DNA of 64,000 bases from Zygnema cylindricum. Taxonomy: Eukaryota > Streptophyta > Zygnematophyceae > Zygnematales > Zygnemataceae. Below are positions 18,401 to 59,924 of the stretch, one piece after another. The notes beneath the pieces were generated by a model. It was not told the origin of the DNA. It ran no database searches and saw only the letters and a list, made by a program, of their open reading frames with translations. The stretch spans positions 78,466-142,465 of the forward strand of contig JBBHKE010000063.1 of the NCBI GenBank assembly GCA_037447655.1, read 5' to 3'. How positions within the stretch are numbered: position 1 is the stretch's first letter; each line of letters begins with the position of its first letter. The position numbers and the translations under genes are program-made.

Positions 18401-20326
18401 CATAAAAATATCATCGCTAATATTGGACAACATGTCGGAGGAAAAACGCCTCGATTGGAGTCGAGGTTAGTTTAAATTGGAAGGAAAAAATAAGGTTATT
18501 TTGAGTTATTTTTGTTTTTTTTGTTTTTTCTGTTATTGTTATGTGTTTTTTTTACACATTCTATACATTTTGCACATTATATATTTGTATATTCGATTTT
18601 GTTACGATTTCGTCGAGGTCAAGGTTTCTTGCGGGTTTTGTATATTCTAATTTTATATCGATTATATGTTGATTATATGTCGATTTTATGTCGATTATAT
18701 GTCAATTTTACATCAGTTATTTGTATATGTTGATTACATGTTGATTATATGTCGGTTATATGTCGGTTATATGTCGATTATATGTTGTCTATATGTTGAC
18801 TTTGTGTCCATTATATGATTATATGTGAATTATATGTGGATTATATGTGGATTACTTGTGGATTATATGTCGATTATCTGTCGATCATATGTCGGTTATA
18901 TGTCAATTATATGTCGATTATATGTTGATTAGGTGTCGACCGGAGACAAGGTAAGTTCATTTTTCTGGCAAAGGCAGATTTTTAAATTTTTTGTTTCATG
19001 TGTCGATTTCGTATCATTTTTGTTTTTTTCTTTTTCTCGATGTTATGTTGAATTCTTCTTTTTTCCATCTTTCCCAGAGATGACGACGTGACATTAGCGT
19101 TACTGCCCATGTTCCACATCTACGCTATAACTTGTGTGAATTTAATCGCATTAAAAACGGGTGCGACACTTGTCACGATGGCGAGGTTTGATTTGGAGCA
19201 CATGTTGGCTCTCGGAGAAAAGTACAAAATCACTATGGCGCCTTTGGTACCGCCCATTATTTTGGGTGAGTTTTTTTTTAATTGGGAGTTTGTTTAGTAT
19301 CTCCTGTTTTTTTTTTATGTGTGTGTGTCTTTTTGTTTTATTATTATTGCTATTATTACTTTTGTTACTATTATATATATATATATTATTATTATTATTT
19401 TTGGCTGTTATTATTATTATTATTATTTTTTTTTATTTATTTTTTTGATATTATTGTTATTGTCATTGTTGTTATTATTTGTATTATTATTATTGTTATT
19501 ATTCTCAATAAATGGACCTTCTAAAACGTTTTTTTTTTTCCATTCGATTTTCTTCATCTTCTCCATTTTATTTTTCTTTTCTTGAATTCGTTCACCTTGT
19601 AACCATTTTAACCTTTTTTTTTTCGGGCAGCTCTTGCAAAATCCCCGGTGGTACAAAAGTACAATTGGAGAAGTTTGAGGACCGTAATCTCTGGAGCCGC
19701 ACCTCTCGGGGCAGAACTCGAAAAACTTTTCAAAAAAAAATATCCTAATGTCGCTCTCGGGCAGGTAGCAGTTTTTTTTTTTTTTTTCTACTTTTAATAA
19801 AAAATGAAAGCACTCTGGAAATCCCAAAAAATAATCTGTCTCTCACTTCCCTCCCTCCCTCCCTCCCTTCTCCCTCCTTCCCCCTCCCTGTCCCCCTCCC
19901 TCCCTCTCTCTCCTCCCCAGGGCTACGGCATGACAGAGAGCAGTCCCACTCTCTCCCTCTCCTGTGCCTTTATGCCACGTAGCGACCTCTCTTCCTCTCC
20001 CTCCTCCTCCCCCGGGTCCGTTGGTACTCTGTTGCCCTGTACGGAGGCTGTTATTGTGGACACCGCTACAGGACAAAATCTGCCGCCCGGGAGGAGAGGG
20101 GAGCTCTGGGTCAGAGGCCCCCAGGTCATGAAGGGTGAGATTTTAGGTTTTTTTTTGTTAGGGTTTTTTTTAGGGTTTTTTTTTGGGGGTTTTATGGTGA
20201 GTGAATTTAAAAAGAAAACTTAAAAAAACTCTAAACATATACCGAAACTTCTATACTCTCTCTCTCTCTCGTTCTCTTTCTCTCTCTCTCCCTCCCTCTT
20301 TCTCTCTCTCTCCCTCTCTCTCTCTT

Positions 20327-26401: not shown

Positions 26402-27692
26402 ACCATATTTATTTCAAAAGGTTTATATTACCTCAATACAAAATATATCCGTTTTTATTTTTCATATTTCAACGAACTACATCCAACTGACAGTTTTTCT
26501 CATGCAGTAGCTTTGTCCTTTTCCTCGAATGCCTCTTGTCACGAAAGAAACAGTACACAACAAATAAAATATCACAACCGTACCGTCAACACTTGAGAAT
26601 ATGACTATTTCCCACTTTATATATTTTTAAGATATAATAACAGAAATAGTAGCGACCCGTGTGTTTTAAACTTAATAGTTCAGATTTTTATATGTACAAA
26701 ATGTACAAAATATACAAAATGTACGAAATGGAAAAAACGTACGCCATGGACAAAATGCATAAAACGTACTGAATGTTTTGAAAATGTACGGTTCGTACAG
26801 AATATATGTAATGTACAAAATGTAAATGTAAACCAATAGTGAAATTGATAAACTCAAATTAGTGTGGACATGGTATCCAATAATTTGTCGGTTCACTTAA
26901 GACATATGTGAGTACATTTGTACTTATCTGAATATTAATAAAAAAATATTTCGATGTACATCACTAATAAAAATGAATAGAAATCAATAGGTAAACAGTA
27001 CCAAAAATCTCATTTCCCTAATTTCCTTAGTTTTTGACAGCTTTTCATGACAAAAAAAAATAAAATTGCAAAAACGAAAAGGTATATTGTTTTCGATTTT
27101 TTTTTGTCTTTTGTCTGTTTCATGTTCTACATGCGCCCCCTAAAGTCGCAACTTTTAGCCATTTTTACGGAATCCGTGATAGATCAAGGTCCACAGTTAT
27201 CCGTAAAATGTTTATTAGAATTCCTTATCTGTGAGTTAATTAAATAAATATGGGGTATAAAGTGCTCTAATTTGTCGCAATTTTTAGAACCACGGTTCGT
27301 ACGAGCACCATTTTTTCTCGAAAGGAGTCAATTTTATGGCTTTTTTATTATTGATAACATAAAAATAGAATAAAAAAAAAAATGGTTTTTAAAACATGAT
27401 TTAGTGTGGATGCAAAGGGGCATCCGTACTGGAATTTATTCTGGTGAGAAAAGAATAAAAAAAACACCTTGCTTTAGCTTATAATGAAAATTAATTACTT
27501 AAAACAATTGATTTTTCAAATAAATGACGAGTTAGTAAAACTGTTTCTCTTAAGAGTCTCTACAAAGATATGTCAAAAAAAACGTTAAAAAAAACAAAAA
27601 AGTTAAAGAAGAAACATAAGTTAAGAAAAAGATGAGATTAAAAAAGGACAAAAAACAAAAAAAGACAATTGAAAAAGTTAAAAAGGACCCGT

Positions 27693-27832
27693 CAGAACGC
27701 TCCCGGTCCATCGACTGCCGGCGGAATGTGCACGGCAGGACGGTCATCAAGCGGCGCTGCTGGCCGACAGAATTGCCGGCCGGCTGCGCGCAGTATTCGC
27801 GCTCAGGGCCGGGAGTCTCTACTCGTCTTCCG
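27693..27832. other. GC-rich island in AT-rich spacer
   Basis: About 140 bases rich in GGCCGG/GCCGGC motifs, bounded abruptly by A-rich DNA. Neither strand gives a recognisable protein and it does not resemble rRNA. Origin unknown. Confidence 0.5.
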
Positions 27833-29076
27833 GGATTTGGAATTTGACTGTATTAGAAGATACAAACAGGAGTACGAACTATAGAACAGATCCTGTTCAA
27901 GTATAGTCGTAATATAATGATGACAAATTTCGGTTTTAATCGCGTAAAGTTTATTGCGTAGAAAATTGTGGGAGAAACCGCTACCTCGATATTTTAATTT
28001 TTTGTTTTTTTTTTTAAACGGCTGATAGTACTGCAACGTGGTCGGTTTGTGCTGAAAAGTACATTTAAGAACAGTACGGTATTTAGTAGCGGGAAAACTC
28101 TTTAAGCAAGGCTCGATTTTCATCTGCTTACGTGGAGGCTTCTCGTCCGCTTATATTTTTGAATTCTTATCGCTAAGCAGTATAAACTGAACAGAAAAGA
28201 CAAAAAGATAATAAATATGACCGAAGAGGCCGAGCGACGACCGGTTGGACAGGTCATCATGGGAGCCAAATCTTGTAGATTCTTTTTACCGTACTAATAC
28301 GTACGGACTCAGCATAGCTGCCCTAAAATCGACGGCCAGACTGTTTGTTTTCTATACTTCCTGTACTTTTGCTGCTGCTATTTCCTATGAGGAAATAGCG
28401 ACAGGTAATAGCGTGCGTATAATAAATTAATGCGTGCCCCTAACAACGTCCATAAAAGTTAAAACATTGCTATTACGGGAAAATGATTCGAGATAGTTAT
28501 GATTTCTACATCTATGGGTGACGCAAGAATATCGTACCATACTACGTCATATGTACGGTCACAAGTGACAAGATTTTTAGCTGGTCACTAGAATCTCATG
28601 TACGGACGAATGGCATGCTAACCAACCCCCAAACAGAAAATTCAACCAATGAAATCAAATATTGCTCACCGACAAAACCTGAGCGGATTTTTCATTTTGT
28701 CAGCAGGTCAAGTACAGCTTTCTTCTTTACTTTTATGGTTGGCGAGGACGGCTAGCACTGTATTTTGCAATTTGGCCGTACTTTTTACTATTCCTTGTCA
28801 TTTTGACTTTGTGGAGATGCCAGTGAATGGGATGTACGGCTAGTTCTTTCACTGACATTTAAGAAAAGTCAGCGATAATTTAAAAAATTTGAGGTTGACT
28901 CTTTTTTTCTGTAGCATGCTATCCAACATGGAGGGTCAGCCAAAAAACTGCCCGTAAAATGTCATGATAACGATGACGATTGCGAATCTCTTGGCTCGAG
29001 AATGTACGTCATCATGAAGTACTTTCCTGTACCTAGGACTACAGATACGACAATATTGTTTTTCCCGTTATTTTAG

Positions 29077-33159: not shown

Positions 33160-35244
33160 TCATCCGCATACATTAACCTCCACCGATCCTTGCCAACTGG
33201 TAATCCTTCTCCTTTTCAAAGAAGGACAACTTTCCAAACAAGGCGATTGATTTGACTGGTTTGTCTCATCTGCCTCGACCAAAGCTTGTTGACACTCGTC
33301 TTTTTCTCCGCCGTCTTTCTCGTCACAGTTTCCAAGAATCTCTTCACATGCTTCGATCAAACCCGTTGTTCCCACAGTGTAACAATCTGTCACGTTCATC
33401 GTTTCCGACACCTGACAATTTTCCGTGGTCATCGTCAATTGACGTGAATCCGACATCTCGTTTTGTAAGACATTAATTTCCTTTTCACAAGCGGTCCTCT
33501 GTCTCCTTTTCGGGCTTTTCTCCGTTTCCAAAAACCCACCAGAATCATCCGAAGAGGAAAATAAACTACCGTAACCTGACACATCATTACTCCTACAATC
33601 GGGAGGGAGCCCCCCTACCTCTATAAAATCCCCTATTCCCAAAACTATTTCCATTACGGTCTCCCTCTTCTTATCTACCTCCGGCTTCCTCTCATTAACC
33701 TCTTCGGTATCAACTACACCATTTTCCTTCTCGTACGACTGAATTTCCATAGGAGAGCACAAATCTGTTACTCCTCCCATACTCTGTTCTTCCGATGACT
33801 GCCACATGGAAAAGGTCAGTTCACTCTTGACTTCTCCTCCGCCTCCTCCTTCTCTTACTACTCCCTCCCTCCCTCCCTCTCCCCCGCCCACAGAAACACG
33901 TAAAGAATCGGAAAAGGATCTGTTGTCATTGCTGATGTCAGACAGCCATGGGTGCCTCAAAACTTCTTCGGCCGAAGGTCTTTTGTCGCTATCCACCGTA
34001 AGCATCCATCTCACCAAACCTTTTAATTCTTCCGAACATTTTGTCCAAACCCCGGACGATAACTCCAATTCCTTACTGTACACGAACTTATTCGAATCCA
34101 AAGAATTCAAAGAATCTTTTGAACACTGGAAGGGATGTTCTCTGAAAATTAAAATGTGAAGGAGAACTCCAAGACTCCAAATATCCGCTTTCGTTCCGTA
34201 TCTCCTTCCTTCCGCGACTTCCGGAGCCAAATATGACGGAGATCCGGCCCGCCCTTCCGCAAAAATATGGCGTCCCTCTCTCTCTGACATGACGGCCAAT
34301 CCAAAATCTGCGACTTTCACACGAAACTTTGAATTTATTTCAAAATCTGTCGACTGATTGATAAAAAGACCACTCGTATTTTTTGGACTTTTGGGTGCAC
34401 CAATAATGTTGGAGGAATTCGACTGAGAAGCCGGAGGAGGAGAAGATGGAGAAGATTGAGATGATGACAAAACCGAGAATTCTTCGTTCAAAGAAAAAGA
34501 AATTGCCCTAGGAACAAAAACCGAGTTGGAGTCATCTTCAAATTGAAGTGAAACCATGTCAGGTTCCAAAAATGGAAGGACAGGAATCTCCGAACAAGAA
34601 GAAAAAGAAGAAGGAGAAGGAAAAGGAGGAGAAGGAAAAGAGGAGGTCGAACCAAGCTTCCATAGATCCTGCTTCTCCATGGATCCTGTTTCCGTTTCAA
34701 ACACCTGTACCTTCTGTACCTTCTCCTCGACTTCCTCCGACACAACACCACTAAAGACACGATTTAGTGTGGAGAAGAGGATAATATTTTCCGGTTTCAA
34801 ATCTCTATGCAGTACTCCCTTCCCGTGACAGTAACTGACTGCTTCCACTACTTGTCTAAAAATATCGACTGCGATTTTTTCGCTCATCGGGTCTCGATTT
34901 TTATTCAACCACTCTAATAAATCTCCTCGATCCGCGACTTCCATCAATATATGGACGGCGTGGCTGTCTTCATAAACTCCTTTTAACTCAACGATCCCTT
35001 CGTGTCCTGACACGTGTCGCAGCGTGGCGATCTCTCGGAGGACGGCAGATTGTTCTGATTCGAGTCGAACTCTCTCTTTGAAAATAGTTTTACATGCGAC
35101 AAGTTCGCCAGTTGTACGGTTTTGGCAGCATCTGACGACACCGTAACCTCCGGAGCCGATCTGCGGTCCGAGCCAATAATCTGCTGAGAGCTCGCGATGG
35201 ATGCTTCCAGGAACCATGTACAGGTGAGGCACGTGTGAAGACAT
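33160..35244 (-). CDS. Serine/threonine protein kinase, CDPK/PEPKR2-like, with large kinase-domain insert
   Basis: Single 694-residue reading frame. Kinase landmarks in order: glycine loop IGSGGYGVV (29-37), ATP-binding Lys52 in VACKTI, catalytic HRDLKPEN (146-153), DFG 313-315, GSPSYLAPEV (335-343), DIWSLGVLLH (354-363), final HPWL (431-434). The pattern resembles plant PEPKR2 and calcium-dependent kinases, but no EF-hands follow; the tail from 440 is acidic, Ser/Gly-rich and low complexity. Between HRDLKPEN and DFG there are about 160 residues where kinases normally have about 20, a Ser/Pro/Glu-rich insert (roughly 158-305). It could be a true insert or an unspliced in-frame intron. Start chosen as the first ATG before the domain; Met10 is an alternative. 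Confidence 0.88.
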   Translation of the reverse strand: MSSHVPHLYMVPGSIHRELSADYWLGPQIGSGGYGVVRCCQNRTTGELVACKTIFKERVRLESEQSAVLREIATLRHVSGHEGIVELKGVYEDSHAVHILMEVADRGDLLEWLNKNRDPMSEKIAVDIFRQVVEAVSYCHGKGVLHRDLKPENIILFSTLNRVFSGVVSEEVEEKVQKVQVFETETGSMEKQDLWKLGSTSSFPSPPFPSPSSFSSCSEIPVLPFLEPDMVSLQFEDDSNSVFVPRAISFSLNEEFSVLSSSQSSPSSPPPASQSNSSNIIGAPKSPKNTSGLFINQSTDFEINSKFRVKVADFGLAVMSEREGRHIFAEGRAGSPSYLAPEVAEGRRYGTKADIWSLGVLLHILIFREHPFQCSKDSLNSLDSNKFVYSKELELSSGVWTKCSEELKGLVRWMLTVDSDKRPSAEEVLRHPWLSDISNDNRSFSDSLRVSVGGGEGGREGVVREGGGGGEVKSELTFSMWQSSEEQSMGGVTDLCSPMEIQSYEKENGVVDTEEVNERKPEVDKKRETVMEIVLGIGDFIEVGGLPPDCRSNDVSGYGSLFSSSDDSGGFLETEKSPKRRQRTACEKEINVLQNEMSDSRQLTMTTENCQVSETMNVTDCYTVGTTGLIEACEEILGNCDEKDGGEKDECQQALVEADETNQSNQSPCLESCPSLKRRRITSWQGSVEVNVCG

Positions 35245-35275
35245 TGCTGCGCTCTCTCCCTCTCTGTGCCTGTCT

Positions 35276-35314
35276 TTGACTGTCTCTCTATCTCTCTCTC
35301 TGTCTCTCTCTCTG

Positions 35315-35345
<31 letters not shown>

Positions 35346-35346
35346 T
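35276..35346 (-). promoter_or_regulatory. CT/GA-rich 5' leader of kinase gene
   Basis: CTCTCTCT tract (GAGAGA on the coding strand) 30-100 bases upstream of the kinase ATG at 35244. Placement parallels the ligase gene, whose leader is CT-rich on its own coding strand. No TATA element assigned. Confidence 0.35.
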
Positions 35347-35399
35347 GCTCTTGCTCTCTCTTACTAGTGTATCCTATCTGTTTCTCCTCCAGGCTCTGC

Positions 35400-42240: not shown

Positions 42241-42514
42241 TAACCAGTTGATGTAGTTGAAGTCGATATACACATGGGGTGTTATGTAAAAATAAATTTG
42301 ATTTTACTCGTCTAATTCATTTAAACGGATTCAGTCAAAACGGGGTACATAAGGAGAAAAAATATAAGCCCCGCAAAATATTCGGCGCGCCGCATAATTG
42401 AACGGAAGGCGATTTAAGAAATTTATGATCGGACGATCTGCATGAGCGGCGGGAGCCTGGAATGGTTATTTTGGCGCTTTACACCAAAAGAGCTACAAAC
42501 ATACACGTGGCATT

Positions 42515-42737
42515 TGTTGACGTACGTGAAACGTGCGCTCGATATCCGGAATTGTGGTAATATCCACACTAAAAAGCTATATAAAAATGGACCCACCAGC
42601 ATAACATCCGAGCTGGTGGCACAGTGGTAGTGCGTTCGCAGCTTAAGTGAAAGGTCCCAGGTTCAAATCCTGGCCGGCCTCATCAATCCCTTTATTGGGA
42701 TCGTCCATTCTATCCCCCGATTCTAGGAATCTTAACA
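42515..42737 (+). repeat. 5' LTR of TRIM
   Basis: 223 bp, TG...CA ends, direct repeat of 42804-43025. TATA-like TATATAAAA near 42579. Confidence 0.95.
42610..42682 (+). ncRNA. tRNA-like sequence in 5' LTR of TRIM
   Basis: Same D, anticodon and T arms as the 3' LTR copy. The 3' acceptor strand reads CCGGCCTC instead of CCAGCTC, one substitution plus one inserted base, which weakens the acceptor stem. Confidence 0.8.
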
Positions 42738-42750
42738 TGGTATCAAAGCC
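42738..42750 (+). other. Primer binding site (initiator Met-tRNA type)
   Basis: TGGTATCAAAGCC directly after the CA of the first LTR; the classic plant site is TGGTATCAGAGC. Confidence 0.9.
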
Positions 42751-42803
42751 AGGGGGACCAGGTTTACATGGACTATTATGACCGGCTACCTCTCGAGGGT
42801 GGG

Positions 42804-43025
42804 TGTTGACGTACGTGAAACGTGCGCTCGATATCCGGAATTGTGGTAATATCCACACTAAAAACCTATATAAAAATGGACCCACCAGCATAACATCCGA
42901 GCTGGTGGCACAGTGGTAGTGCGTTCGCAGCTTAAGTGAAAGGTCCCAGGTTCAAATCCTGGCCAGCTCATCAATCCCTTTATTGGGATCGTCCATTCTA
43001 TCCCCCGATTCTAGGAATCTTAACA
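42804..43025 (+). repeat. 3' LTR of TRIM
   Basis: 222 bp, preceded by purine tract GAGGGTGGG and followed by the target duplication. Confidence 0.95.
42899..42970 (+). ncRNA. Full cloverleaf tRNA-like sequence in 3' LTR of TRIM
   Basis: 72 nt fold as a complete tRNA. Acceptor GAGCTGG/CCAGCTC 7 of 7; D-stem GCAC/GTGC 4 of 4 with loop AGTGGTA; anticodon stem TTCGC/GTGAA 5 of 5 (one G-T); variable AGGTC; T-stem CCAGG/CCTGG 5 of 5 with loop TTCAAAT; discriminator A, then TCA. The B-box GGTTCAAATCC is consensus. The anticodon loop AGCTTAA lacks the nearly invariant T33, so decoding is doubtful; by position the triplet would be CTT (Lys-type). No T4 terminator follows closely. Confidence 0.88.
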
Positions 43026-43088
43026 GCATTACCTTTGTTTAAGAAACTTCGGTCTCTCAAAACATCTGAGTGCGAGAGACTTTTAGAC

Positions 43089-53756: not shown

Positions 53757-54724
53757 TTAGTGTATTTCTACAACCACAGTAGCAGGAGGATAGCCAGAAG
53801 CAGTAGTAGTGGAAGTAGACATTTAAAGCAGAAGCTAACAAGCACCCTACTCAACAACCAACTTCAATATGTGATAGAATGCAACTCAGTGATCTATGCA
53901 GACTCAAATTCTGCATAACAGTAGTAAGCACAGTGTAGAATCACTCTACAAAGATTCAACTCAATTGATCCAGCCAGCCATAAGATCTTCACACTGCAGT
54001 TACACAAAAACTGCCTTAGTTTATTAATATCCCAAGACTTGGATGATCACAATTTGTCTAAGTCTTAAACTATATACTCACAGTGTGTATCTACACACTA
54101 ATTTAAGTGACTGTACTACAGTACTATTCTATTCTACCACAAAGTACTAAAATTATACTTACTATTCTATGAGTACATCCAAAACCTAATTTTGCCTTTT
54201 CTCTAAATCTGAATAGTGCGACACTATTTTAAATTAGCTAAACTACAAAACCTTGTTTCAGATATTTACAAATAGAAGGCCGTACATTAAATGTTCTTGG
54301 CGCTTAGTCAGCTGTGGTCCATAGCATTCAGCTGACTGTTGTCGTGTAGTACGAAACACCTGATACCGTCAAAGTGTGCTTCGTCATTTGTGGTCCCTTC
54401 AGAATCGCGCCTGTCAATTCGATGTCAATCAACGACCCTTCTTGGCTGAACGTACCATACTTTTCCATATATGCGGTTTGCATTCCTTTCGTCCGATTTC
54501 ATCAATCGGCTCGTTAATCTCCCGACACGTGTAACTGGTCATCGGCGGTACTCCGTGAAATCTGCAACACCCTTTTCTTGCCGACGCGTGTCCAACTGGC
54601 CGTACACTACACTATCTTAGTCTTCTGTTACTGTAACACTATGATTTTCATTTCCCAAAACATTCTAAGTCCTTAATTCTTTCTCACAACTCTATCTACT
54701 GAGTAAAGATTTCCAATTTCAACT
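53757..54724 (-). mobile_element. Second LTR plus leader and gag start of Copia B
   Basis: Matches 58930-59924 in the same orientation with roughly 10-12 percent divergence by eye: gag ATG at 53822 (MSTSTTTASG), leader, and LTR ending (minus-strand start) at 54724. A normal 3' LTR would not be followed by its own leader and gag start, so this marks an LTR-internal-LTR-internal chain. Gag is truncated after about 22 codons. Confidence 0.8.
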
Positions 54725-57700
54725 CTCCCCTAATTCTTTAGACTCAGTCACTCACTCAGCCCAATAGCGTTTCTACAAAACTGTAACTCAGGAGCAGGAA
54801 GGGGTTTAGTTAGCATGTCAGCAAAACAGAGCAGGAAGGGGTTTAGTTAGCATGTCAGCAACAATTTTCTCATCTGGTAAATAACACAATTTTAAAACTC
54901 TTCCAAGCACATTTTCAATCACAAAATGAAGTCTGACATCCATGTGCTTGCTCTTAAAATGATTACTCGGGTTAGTAGCAATAGCAATGGCTGCCTGGTT
55001 GTCACACCAAATAATCTGTGGACCTGTCTGCATGTATCCAAGTTCTTGCAAAATGGACTTAACCCATAAGAGTTTTTTGAGTGCAGAAGATGTTGCCATG
55101 TACTCTGACTCCATTGTAGACTGTGCTGTAACCTTTTGGTGCTTGCTGCTCCAGCATGAAGTTCCATCTTGGATCTTTAGGAAGAAGCCGGTTGTAGATT
55201 TTTGGCTTGGCATATCCCCATAGCTGGCATCACTCCAAGTCTGCATTTTCACTTCTCCTCCTCCGAGTATCAACTTAAGATCTCGAGTCCCTGCAAGGTA
55301 TCTCAAAAATCTTTTTGCAGCTTCCCAGTCTGCCCTCTTAGGATATTGCAGACTTCTACTTAGGACTCCTACAGCTGATGCAATGTTAGGTCTCGTACGA
55401 TTCATGAAGTATATAAGACTTCTCACTACCTGCCTATACGACTTTGAAGCGTTAAACTCTTCATCCCCTAACTCTAGGCTCTCACTAACCATTATGCCTG
55501 AGTCTGACTCACTTCAATCAAGCGTCTTTCTGAATTCTATGGGAGTTACAAATCCTTTTACATCTTTCATTTCAAATTTTACCAGCATATTACTTATTGC
55601 TTCCTTTTTTGTTAACATAATGAGTTTTCTGTTTCTGTCTCTCTCTACCTGTATTCCTAAGATTTACTTAAATTCACCAAGGTCCTTCATCACGATCCTT
55701 GACCTTAAAGCAACTTTAATTCGATTTATCTCATCCATAGACTTGCTTAGTAAAGCAAGTCATCCACATATACAGCAATATAAAGAATCCCATCCTCCCC
55801 TTGCAGTATATACACTGAGTGCTCTGAACTAATCCTTTAAAATCCTAGTCTGGTAATAAATTCATCTAGTTTTAAGTTCCATTGTCTAGGGGCTTATTTC
55901 AGCCCATACAAAGATTTTATTAGTTTACAGACTAAGTTTTCTTTCCCTTTCTCTACATACATCTCCGGTTGTTTCATGTAAATGTTTTCTTCTAACTCTC
56001 CATGCAGGAAGGCAGTCTTAACGTCCATGTGGTGGACTTCCATGTTTTCTATAGCAGCCAAACTTAGTAAGATTCTAACAGTGGGAAAATCTGACAACTG
56101 GAGAGAAGGTTTCCTCAAAATCAATACCTTTTTTCTGATTGTAACCTTTGGCCAAAAGTCTGGACTTGTACCTTTCGATGGTGTTGTCCGGGTTGAGTTT
56201 CACTTTGAACACCCATTTGCTGCCGATGGCTTTCCTGCCCGGAGGAAGATCCACCAGCTCCCACGTCTGCGCCTCCATGATGGACTTCATTTCGTCCTTT
56301 ACTGCCTCGATCCAGTGATTTCTCTCCCGTGATGAGAAGGCTTTCTGAATTGTTAACGGTTATGTTGTAGCTGCTGAGAAAGCAAAATGTGAGCTTGCTT
56401 GCAGACGGGTGCTGGTTCTTCTTCCCCCCGGAAATTCTGAGGCTGAAATTGTCGGCAACTTGCTATTTGTTTTCCTGATTTGAGTTGTTGCAGGTGGCGA
56501 AACAAGATCTGGATTTGCTGATTCCACATGTGAAGGAAGCGGTGTAGATGTTGGTGCCGAATCTAGTTCTGCAGCAGGTGTTGCATTTGGTAGAGGGATC
56601 TGTGGAGATGTAGTTGTAGCCGGTGACTGTGACTGAAAATAAACAGGGTGAGTATGCTGAAAGATCACATACTCTTGTACCTTTCCTGTTTGTTCACTTT
56701 CTGTGTTTGTGAACAGATTAACCGAATCTTGTTCATCCTTCAATTGTATATTTCTACATACAATGACTTTCTTCTTCTCTAAGACATATACCCTATAACC
56801 CTTTGCATTGTCATCATATCCCACAAAGATCCCAAGTAAGCCCTTAGCTTCCATTTTCCACCTAGTCTTCGATGTGTCTAAGACAAAACATTTGCTGCCA
56901 AATACTCTAAAGTGACTAACATCCGGTTTCATGACTGTCTAGAGTTCATAAGTTGTAGTCTTAACCGATCTAGATGCAACTCTGTTTTTAATATAGACCG
57001 CACAATTGAGTGCTTCAGCTTAGAATTTCAAATCTAAACCTTTGTCTGTAAACATGGACCTAGCACTTTCTGTGACAGTTCAATTTAGTCGTTGAGAAAC
57101 ACCATTCTGTTCCGGTGTATACGGAACTGTCAAGTTATGACTGATACCTTCCTAGAGGAGAAACTGTTCGAACTCCTTTGAAGTATAATCTCCTCCGTTG
57201 TCCGATCATAGCGCCAAGATCGGAACTCCATGCAACTTTTGTGCCCATGCCTTGTAGTGCTTGAAGTGTGTAAACACTTCACTCTTCTGCTGCATGAAGT
57301 AGACTCTTGTGAACCTCAAGCAGTCATCACTGAATGTAACCATATAGTGGACACCTTCAGCAGATGAAACCTGTGATGGACCGAGAACATCAGAGTGGAT
57401 AAGTTGTAGAACTTTGTCCGATCTGTGGTCAGATTGCTGTGGAAAAGGTAATTTGTGGATCTTTCCAAGTGAGCAACCATCACATGATTTCACAGGTTGA
57501 GAAGTAAGAGAGACACCCTCAACCTTTCATGAATTCACCATCTTTTGCAAGTTATCATAATTGATATGGCCTAATCTTTTATGCCATAACTCATTTACAG
57601 ACGATACACTGGAATAGAGAACATCATTTTCTTTGTATTTTGCCATATCCATCCTATACATCTTGCTTGCATCTCTAGTTCCTGTCACTGCAACTTTTCC

Positions 57701-58999
57701 TAGCTTGCTAACAACCTGTCTTCCTCCTTTGAGGATTACATCAAAGCCTTTGCTCTCTGCCAAAAAAGTAGAAAATAGATTCTTTTTGAACTCTGGTACA
57801 TATAACACATTGTGGAGAGTTCTCTCTACACACTTTCCCCCCACATCTACCATTAAAGATACATCACCCTGTGCTGAAGTTTGCACACTCATGCCGTAGG
57901 CATAGTAGATGTTCTTGGGAGTTGTCGCCTGGAGGTTGGAAAAACTGGATTTGTTCCAACACATATGTGTCGAAGCCCCGGTATCCATGATCCATCCTGT
58001 ATCTCTCTGGCCTTCCATAGCTGCCGCCATTGCAAATATTTCTGCTTCATCACCTTCAGTGTAAGAGAAGGGATCATCTTCTTCGTTTGCAGAACTTGAG
58101 AAGAGAGCAGTTCCCCGAGAAGAGTTCCCAGAAAAGCCCTTATGATATGGGCTCTGCTGCCAGCCTGGATGATATAGTCCTGTTTCATTTGCCTTTTTCA
58201 ACTTAGAAGAGTACCTGTATCCATGTCCTTTTTCAGAGCAGTAAAAGCAAGAAGTAGCCTGTCTATTTGGTCTATTGTTATACTGGTTCTCATTTTGACT
58301 CCTATTCTGATTTCTGTTCAGATTAAGTAAAGTTTTCCTGTCAAAATCTGTGTTCAAAGCTTCTACCTTTCTCTCTCCATGAAGTATTTTAGTAGTTGCT
58401 TCTTCTTTTAAGATTAGATTGTACACTAACTGAAATGTCCAGCTAGATTTATCATGAGTTTTCAGGTGGACATACACTCCTTTCATATTACTAGGGAGTC
58501 CCCTAACAAGTAAAGCTGCCCGCGGGAACTCAGGAAATCAGCCACCAGCAAACGAATGTGCATCAATAAGAGCACGAAAGTTATCACAATATTCCACCAT
58601 ACTCCCCCGCCCCGGAGTATTTATAGTCCCAGATTTGTCTAGCCACCAGAAGTTCCTCTTGGACATTAGATTTCTCAAAAGCAGTTTTTAGTGATTCCCA
58701 GATTTCTTTTGCTTTTTTCATTTTGAGCCGAGACATGACCAAATTCTCGGAGATGCATAGAATCAGATTGTTTCGCGCCAGTGAGTTTTTCTTCGCCCAG
58801 CTCGCATCTGTTTCACTTAAAGTACCATCCAAGACCCCCAATAGATCAGCAGTTTCAAATGTGGATTCAACCATCGCCGCCCAGTATGAATCATTTTGGC
58901 CATTAAATTGGGGATTCTTGATGAAAGGCCCATAACGTGTTGTTCTACAACCACAATAGCAAGAGGAGAGCCAGAAGCAGTAGTAGTGGAAGTAGACAT
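54725..58999 (-). pseudogene. Degenerate Ty1/copia polyprotein (copy B), nearly full length
   Basis: Minus strand, ATG at 58999 (MSTSTTTASG). Gag core 58900-58440. Zinc knuckle CFYCSEKGHGYRYS near 58235 has lost its last Cys. Protease WIMDTGASTHMC near 57970. GAG-pre-integrase LWHKRLGHINY near 57590. Integrase CDGCSLGKIHKLPF, HSDVLGP (57490-57200). Reverse transcriptase [19 protein letters not shown] (56240-56000) and YVDD (about 55770). RNase H SDASYGD, STMESEYMA, CDNQAAI (55250-54990), ending DMLTKPLPA. Multiple stops and frameshifts; a 37 bp duplication truncates the C-terminus. A polypurine-like AATTAGGGGAGAG (about 54737-54725) precedes the LTR. Confidence 0.92.
54792..54863. repeat. 37 bp tandem duplication at Copia B pol end
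   Basis: 54792-54828 is repeated from 54829. It changes the natural C-terminal frame so the read-through ends ...PALFC and stop. Confidence 0.88.
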
Positions 59000-59099
59000 T
59001 TAAAGCAGAAGCTAACAAGCACCCTACTCAATAGCCAACTTCAAGATGTGATAGAATGCAACTCAGTGATCTATGCAGACTCAAATTCTGCATAACACC

Positions 59100-59924
59100 A
59101 GTAAGCATAGTGTAGAATCACTCTACAAAGATTGAACTCAATTGATCCAGCCAACCACAAGATATTCACACTGGAGATTCACAAAAACTGCCGTAGTTGA
59201 TTAATATCCCTAGACTTGGATGATCACAATTTGTCTAAGTCCTAAACTATATACTCACAATGAGTATCTACTGGTCACACTAATTTAAGTGACTGTACTA
59301 CAATACTGTTCTATGCTACGACAAAGTACTAAAACTGTACTTAATATTCTAAGATTACTTCCAAAACCTAATTTTGCCCTTTCTCTAAATCTGAATAGTG
59401 CGACACTATTTTAAATTAGTTAAACTACAAATCTTTGTATCCAAATATTTACAAATAGGAGTCTGTACGTTAAATGTTCTTGGCGCTTTGTCAGCAGTGG
59501 TCCATAGCATCCGACTGACTGTTGTCCCGTAGTACGAAGCACCTGATGCCTTCCAAGTGTGCCTCGTCATCTGTGGTCCTTTCTGAATCACGTTCGTCAA
59601 TTCGTTGTCAATCAACGGCTCTTTTTGACTGACCTTACCATACTTTTCCATATATATGGTTTGCATTTGGTTCGTCCGATTCCATCAATCCGCCCGTTAG
59701 TCTCCCGACACGTGTAACTGGTCATTGGCGCTACTTTGTAAAACCTGCAGCATCCTTTTCCTGCCGACGTGTGTCCAATTGGCCGTACAATACACTCTCT
59801 TAGTCCTCTATTATTGTAACACTATTTGAGGTAATTATTACAGATTTCCACTTCCCAAAATATTCTAGGTACTTAATTCCTTCTCACATCTCCATCTACT
59901 GAGTAAAGATTTCCAATTTCAACA
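59100..59924 (-). mobile_element. 5' LTR of Copia B
   Basis: Minus-strand LTR begins TGTTGAAATTGGAAATC at 59924 and repeats at 54724. The inner boundary near 59100 is approximate; no standard initiator-Met primer site was found next to it. Confidence 0.7.

Follow-up and report, generated by a model that had tools for sequence, protein, structure and literature searches.

A TRIM retrotransposon family of Zygnema cylindricum with a tRNA-like sequence in each LTR, a candidate for Pol III transcription

The window, that is the whole stretch of 64,000 nucleotides of Zygnema cylindricum DNA analysed here, contains two tRNA-like genes detected by ARAGORN, one in each LTR of a single small element. 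Are they genuine tRNA genes, the trace of a chance insertion into an LTR, or a working part of the retrotransposon that carries them? The features on which the answer is built are the following (positions in the window, strand, description).

42510..42514, no strand: 5' target site duplication GCATT (sequence reading)
42515..42737, + strand: 5' LTR, 223 bp, TGTT...AACA
42578..42586, + strand: TATA element TATATAAAA of the 5' LTR, 32 nt upstream of the tRNA-like part, a spacing as in the family
42610..42682, + strand: tRNA-like sequence of the 5' LTR, with a 1-nt insertion in the acceptor 3' strand (ARAGORN; Rfam RF00005, 44.4 bits)
42738..42753, + strand: primer binding site for initiator tRNA-Met, matching the complement of its 3' end (15/16)
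42738..42803, + strand: interior, 66 bp, too short to code
42792..42803, + strand: polypurine tract adjoining the 3' LTR
42804..43025, + strand: 3' LTR, 222 bp
42867..42875, + strand: TATA element TATATAAAA of the 3' LTR
42899..42970, + strand: tRNA-like sequence of the 3' LTR, 21/21 cloverleaf pairs, box A- and box B-like motifs, G33 (ARAGORN; Rfam, 58.4 bits)
43026..43030, no strand: 3' target site duplication GCATT (sequence reading)

The element and its genomic family

The LTR element is complete, measures 511 bp (42515-43025) and is bounded by TGTT...AACA; its 5' and 3' LTRs (223 and 222 bp) are 98.7% identical. GCATT is present on both flanks, and the complete element with a perfect 5-bp duplication proposed by the sequence-only reading is thus borne out. 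The same is true of the proposed initiator-Met primer site, purine tract and 66-bp interior: the primer binding site TGGTATCAAAGCCAGG adjoins the 5' LTR, the purine tract CTCGAGGGTGGG adjoins the 3' LTR, and the former matches the complement of the initiator tRNA-Met 3' end (with CCA added) at 15 of 16 positions. The query for this tRNA was a plant sequence, which we take to be the initiator-Met tRNA and which was recovered with 100% identity at two places in the genome of the alga. No open reading frame of at least 120 aa in the ORF list of the window overlaps the element. A tRNA-type Pol III promoter, putative in the window element, is also a character of the tRNA-derived SINEs. SINEs have no LTRs, primer binding site or polypurine tract, and a SINE identity was rejected on the two LTRs, both of these sites and the 5-bp duplication of the window element.

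The genome of the alga (352,776,454 bases in 2689 contigs) gave 889 first-look candidates for the LTR and 116 for the interior, of which 40 were scored in each case. A set of 40 loci was composed of the window copy and 39 fetched near-full-length matches, picked by similarity; locus L047 duplicates L046 and was dropped from later counts. As expected from this selection, LTR-interior-LTR units are present at all 40 loci, some of them with a truncated LTR. The 5-bp duplications are perfect at 26 loci, carry one mismatch at three and do not match at 11, several of which are truncated or tandem. Among 20 further loci, eight are single LTRs without interior, and five of these solo LTRs are flanked by perfect duplications; the extraction of paired copies and solo LTRs suggested by the sequence-only reading has therefore yielded perfect duplications in both classes. 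Two tandem forms, L018 with four LTRs and L025 with three, also have perfect outer duplications, and L045 is a tandem LTR-interior array as well. The target duplications argue against segmental duplication as the sole means of spread. The LTR-LTR distances of 32 pairs range from 0 to 0.136 (0-13.6%), two pairs being identical, and the family appears young and well populated. When the divergent copy L071 was used as query, mostly known places were found again, plus a few new ones. Of 43 interiors, 23 have the primer binding site TGGTATCA(A/G)AGCC and 9 have TGGTATCGGAGCC; the purine tract TCTCGAGGGGGGG is found in 27 of 38 cases.

Is the tRNA-like part a constant component of this family? Most loci came from queries that contain it, and the interior query is the fair test. 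All five fetched loci found by the interior query alone (L067-L071) carry the tRNA-like part. This part alone, used as query with 40 candidates scored, gave at least 41 matches, 40 of them at 97-100% identity. From the fetched loci, 104 tRNA-like stretches were taken (matches that did not span the part were left aside), two were excluded for length, and the 102 aligned ones all occupy the same position in the LTR. The tRNA-like part is thus not peculiar to the window copy, where its absence from other copies had been named as the observation that would point to a chance secondary insertion. Such an insertion of a single tRNA or SINE has in its favour that tRNA-derived SINEs exist in general; against it stand the presence of the part in both window LTRs, its fixed place in the family, the five interior-only loci and the many near-identical matches. 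We consider it refuted by these observations, and next to impossible.

Fold, identity and subtypes of the tRNA-like part

With the Rfam model RF00005, the 3' LTR scores 58.4 bits (E 4.9e-10) and the 5' LTR 44.4 bits (E 3.5e-6). The 3' LTR forms 21 of 21 cloverleaf pairs, one of them G-U. The sequence-only reading was right in assigning a tRNA-like sequence to each LTR and full stem pairing to the second; the window 3' LTR, however, has a U-A pair where the commonest form in other copies is U-G, and in the 5' LTR a 1-nt insertion breaks an acceptor pair when the sequence is read ungapped, a defect that is hidden in the gapped alignment. The D loop is one base shorter. In the Rfam scan of the 40 loci, 49 tRNA matches above the gathering score were obtained in 33 loci and seven loci had none. 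Among the 21 cloverleaf pairs of 79 LTRs, no mispair was found in 40 LTRs, one in 19 and two to six in 20. In the five youngest LTR pairs other than that of the window (distance at most 0.009), 10 of 10 tRNA-like parts are fully paired.

Over 80 distinct tRNA-like sequences, 95.0% of cells are paired, the T stem being the lowest (90.8%). The D-stem pair 11-23 is C-G in 55 of these sequences and U-A in 20. In a control of 500 shuffles, three of five measures exceed all shuffles and the other two are reached by 38 and 43 of them; kin sequences can beat shuffles without structure, and the 20 U-A cases may stem from one event. A two-column slide control likewise has 28 double-change cells, yet with 38.8% paired. 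No significant excess of conservation over the remaining LTR was found for the tRNA-like part (one-sided Mann-Whitney, p 0.35), its mean divergence from the majority being 5.5%, against 7.5-8.1% in the upstream LTR and 3.7% downstream. This lack of excess conservation neither proves nor excludes a promoter use.

ARAGORN labels both window sequences tRNA-Lys (CTT), which would make them a pair of functional tRNA-Lys genes. Position 33 is G and not U. Across the family, this position is G in 90 of 104 sequences, A or C in seven and unparsed in seven, with U in no parsed sequence, which argues against a decoding tRNA. A comparison was made with real tRNAs of the same genome, sampled with ARAGORN at 50 loci (58 genes, some counted twice where stretches overlap; 31 distinct sequences); several isotypes are absent from this sample because its loci are the highest-scoring matches. 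None of the 31 distinct sequences is close to the tRNA-like part. The closest is an Arg-CCT tRNA, with 50 identical letters for a 72-nt query, whereas the true tRNA-Lys(CTT) shares 44 to 45. The 79 LTRs are moreover split at the third anticodon letter between T (45) and A (34). Functional tRNA-Lys genes were rejected on position 33 and on the low identity to the sampled tRNAs, and this interpretation is very improbable. One of the 58 genes is a tRNA-Lys-like pseudogene with anticodon CTA (L082:2261-2332), which has a tRNA-Lys(CTT) gene as a neighbour at a distance of about 0.7 kb. ARAGORN called 70 tRNA genes in the 40 TRIM loci, and automatic tRNA counts for this genome may therefore be inflated.

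Two subtypes of the tRNA-like part are distinguished. Type A has 72 nt, C11-G23 and mostly the anticodon CTT; type B has 73 nt, U11-A23 and CTA. Between the majorities of 57 type-A and 20 type-B sequences, the differences are at LTR positions 106, 118, 120, 124 and 130 plus one inserted base. Each of these differences falls within the tRNA-like part; the rest of the LTR shows none between the two majorities at the thresholds applied. On a tree of the LTR minus the tRNA-like part, 11 state changes are needed for the 20 type-B tips, in a topology without branch support and with poor resolution expected. Within the alignment, from which all mixed and recombinant cases were taken, L029, L025 and L041 combine A and B LTRs in one element; in each of L045, L050 and L069 a single LTR has the appearance of a recombinant. 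The likeliest source of this mixing would be an exchange between copies, through template switching or gene conversion.

Promoter signals and the proposed route of copying

The motif TATATAAA is found in 69 of 79 LTRs, and the distance from the TATA element to the start of the tRNA-like part is 32 nt in 54 of 56 measurable LTRs. Box B is recognized by pattern in 50 of 79 LTRs. With the box A- and box B-like motifs, this TATA spacing makes a use of the LTR by Pol III plausible. Pol II could make use of this TATA box just as well. In the sample of tRNA genes from the same genome, a TATA-like motif lies at -45 to -20 in 42 of 57 genes, a count obtained with a loose motif in AT-rich flanks, without chance control and with some genes counted twice.

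The termination signals are less regular. There is no TTTT on the sense strand of the window element. Downstream of the 5' tRNA-like part, the nearest TTTT at 39 loci falls inside the element in 12 cases, beyond it in 22 and is not reached in five, and this scatter indicates that there is no fixed Pol III terminator. TTTT occurs within 30 nt in 32 of 57 sampled tRNA genes. The missing TTTT was not used as a sign of selection: TTTT is likewise absent from 2333 of 5000 first-order simulations, though from just 85 of 5000 stretches of 511 bp drawn at random from the window.

The best reading of these data, to which we give a probability of about 0.75, is that of a non-autonomous TRIM of the Helenus/TRIMp3 kind, transcribed by Pol III from its LTR and copied by the enzymes of another element. 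It is based on the LTR-PBS-PPT-LTR anatomy (PBS, primer binding site; PPT, polypurine tract), the 5-bp duplications, the multicopy family, the tRNA-like fold with its box motifs and the near-fixed TATA spacing. Pol III would start near the 5' end of the tRNA-like part within the 5' LTR, and the transcript would cross the short interior and continue into the 3' LTR, or as far as the first T-run in the flank. Initiator tRNA-Met would prime minus-strand synthesis at the primer binding site; the strong-stop DNA, extending from the tRNA-like part to the LTR end, would jump to the matching sequence of the 3' LTR, and the enzymes of an autonomous LTR element making 5-bp target duplications would finish copying and integration. 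A run-off into the flank need not be fatal in such a scheme, since the strong-stop DNA can pair internally with the 3' LTR.

An ordinary Pol II TRIM would account for part of the same observations. The TATATAAAA box would then direct Pol II to a start some 30 nt further on, at the 5' end of the tRNA-like part, and the latter would be a passive passenger or act in the RNA only. The conserved TATA box at a Pol II-like spacing, the missing fixed Pol III terminator and the tRNA-like part without excess conservation all agree with this. A passenger should however decay in source copies, yet the tRNA-like parts of the five youngest other pairs are all fully paired (the window 5' LTR has its 1-nt insertion); the D-stem change is compensated, and TATA-like motifs precede many sampled tRNA genes too. 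We regard transcription by Pol II as a serious but unlikely alternative.

The Pol III reading can be carried one step further, in a form that we put forward as speculative and rather doubtful. The tRNA-like part may be kept as a folded RNA besides being promoter DNA, and be a substrate or binding partner of the tRNA machinery (RNase P/Z, export, packaging). Its D-arm/anticodon-arm half might be swapped between copies as a block, as in types A and B and the mixed LTRs, so that a small-RNA module would evolve apart from the surrounding LTR. The copies with identical LTRs and the compensated D-stem pair make promoter function and RNA-fold function directly testable against each other.

A mobilising partner was sought among the Copia elements, which are abundant in the genome; 150 places were scored, all above the cut-off, from 22405 first-look candidates. 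Ten Copia ends, from LTR pairs 96-99.9% identical, have the primer site GTTATGGGCC, whose complement lies in the anticodon stem-loop of initiator tRNA-Met and not at its 3' end; several LTR boundaries in this reading are blurred by local alignment. None of the ten ends, the parts of these elements that were read, shares its primer binding site or LTR with the TRIM. The window has its own Copia element (53760-59923, - strand) with LTRs of about 1 kb, 87% identical, and a primer site beginning with GTTATGGGCC; it too shares neither primer binding site nor LTR with the TRIM. In a search with Copia protein, the named matches were to beet, hop, Phytophthora and a scale insect.

Relation to known TRIMs and other features of the window

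The sequence-only reading had proposed a tRNA counterpart of Cassandra, and this comparison is upheld: as in Cassandra, the promoter of a small-RNA gene, here a promoter-like part, lies inside each LTR of a TRIM and recurs in the family. Tandem LTR-interior arrays also occur in Cassandra, according to the accessible parts of PMC4717578 and PMC10853983. The Cassandra LTR has a 5S rRNA, unlike the window element, which has a tRNA; no 5S rRNA match above the Rfam gathering score was obtained in the window or in the 40 loci scanned, and membership in Cassandra was rejected on these scans. The plant TRIMs of Gao et al. 2016, as far as described in the main text, are similar in size, anatomy and tandem forms (their L3I2 and longer), and the word "tRNA" is absent from that main text by word search (PMC4717578).

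The suggestion that a tRNA-bearing TRIM might be new as a kind fails. The accessible text of Kojima 2024 (PMC10886601) describes Helenus as TRIMs with a tRNA-derived LTR sequence, known from fungi, from animals and, among plants, from Selaginella moellendorffii alone. Helenus, Cassandra and Ajax are classed there together as TRIMp3, and the available part of a 2026 meeting report repeats this description (PMC12859917). According to the same text of PMC10886601, the screen was limited to TRIMs below 1000 bp, Helenus would be mobilised by autonomous Copia (fungal) or Gypsy (animal) elements, and a Pol III promoter function is expected for TRIMp3 and not demonstrated there. Judged by that description, the window element resembles Helenus in being short (511 bp), with two LTRs and a non-coding 66-bp interior, in the tRNA-like sequence that each LTR carries together with its box A/B, and in its PBS and PPT at the ends of the interior. 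The 5-bp duplications stated there for plant and fungal Helenus are found here (perfect in the window, at 26/40 loci and in 5/8 solo LTRs), as is the disagreement between anticodon and closest isotype noted for many Helenus, here judged by identity to sampled tRNAs and not by tRNAscan-SE. The differences concern the primer site, which is complementary to the initiator tRNA-Met 3' end here and lies in the anticodon loop in the majority of fungal families (PMC10886601), the full cloverleaf pairing in 40/79 LTRs here, and the size of the plant representative: Helenus-1_SMo, compared by its description only, has an LTR of 120 bp, against 222 bp here, and an interior of 85 bp (PMC10886601).

Probably new, with respect to this partly accessible literature, are the family itself and the occurrence of the Helenus type in a streptophyte (zygnematophyte) alga. 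No further plant or algal report of this type was found among the papers listed in the literature searches, most subscription papers, preprints and Repbase being outside its scope. TRIMs of the Pol III type with a tRNA module, known in the plant lineage from Selaginella in the text cited, would thereby gain a probable record in the algal group that is sister to land plants.

A search of viral contigs with the pattern gave 0 matches, a plasmid search found none, and no rbcL was recovered from the genome of the alga. The contig search returned four contigs of prokaryotes, each with a single match of 19 bases that was regarded as fortuitous. Several other features were observed in the window. Two pairs of long direct repeats, 83-84% identical (43908-44868/48402-49363 and 38164-39604/39950-41467), are probably other LTR or tandem elements. 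A long, single-frame protein kinase ORF (33160-35373, - strand) has distant relatives: among the best 120 of 3339 matches, the named ones are mainly from animals, the green ones include Closterium, Mesotaenium and a few chlorophytes, and no land plant is among the matches listed. The identity with the Mesotaenium and Closterium matches is 37-49% over 17-25% of the kinase. An array of an 11-bp unit like TATATGTCGAT extends from 18608 to 18968, and a plant U3 snoRNA gene (Rfam, 130.4 bits) is located at 27686-27910 on the - strand.
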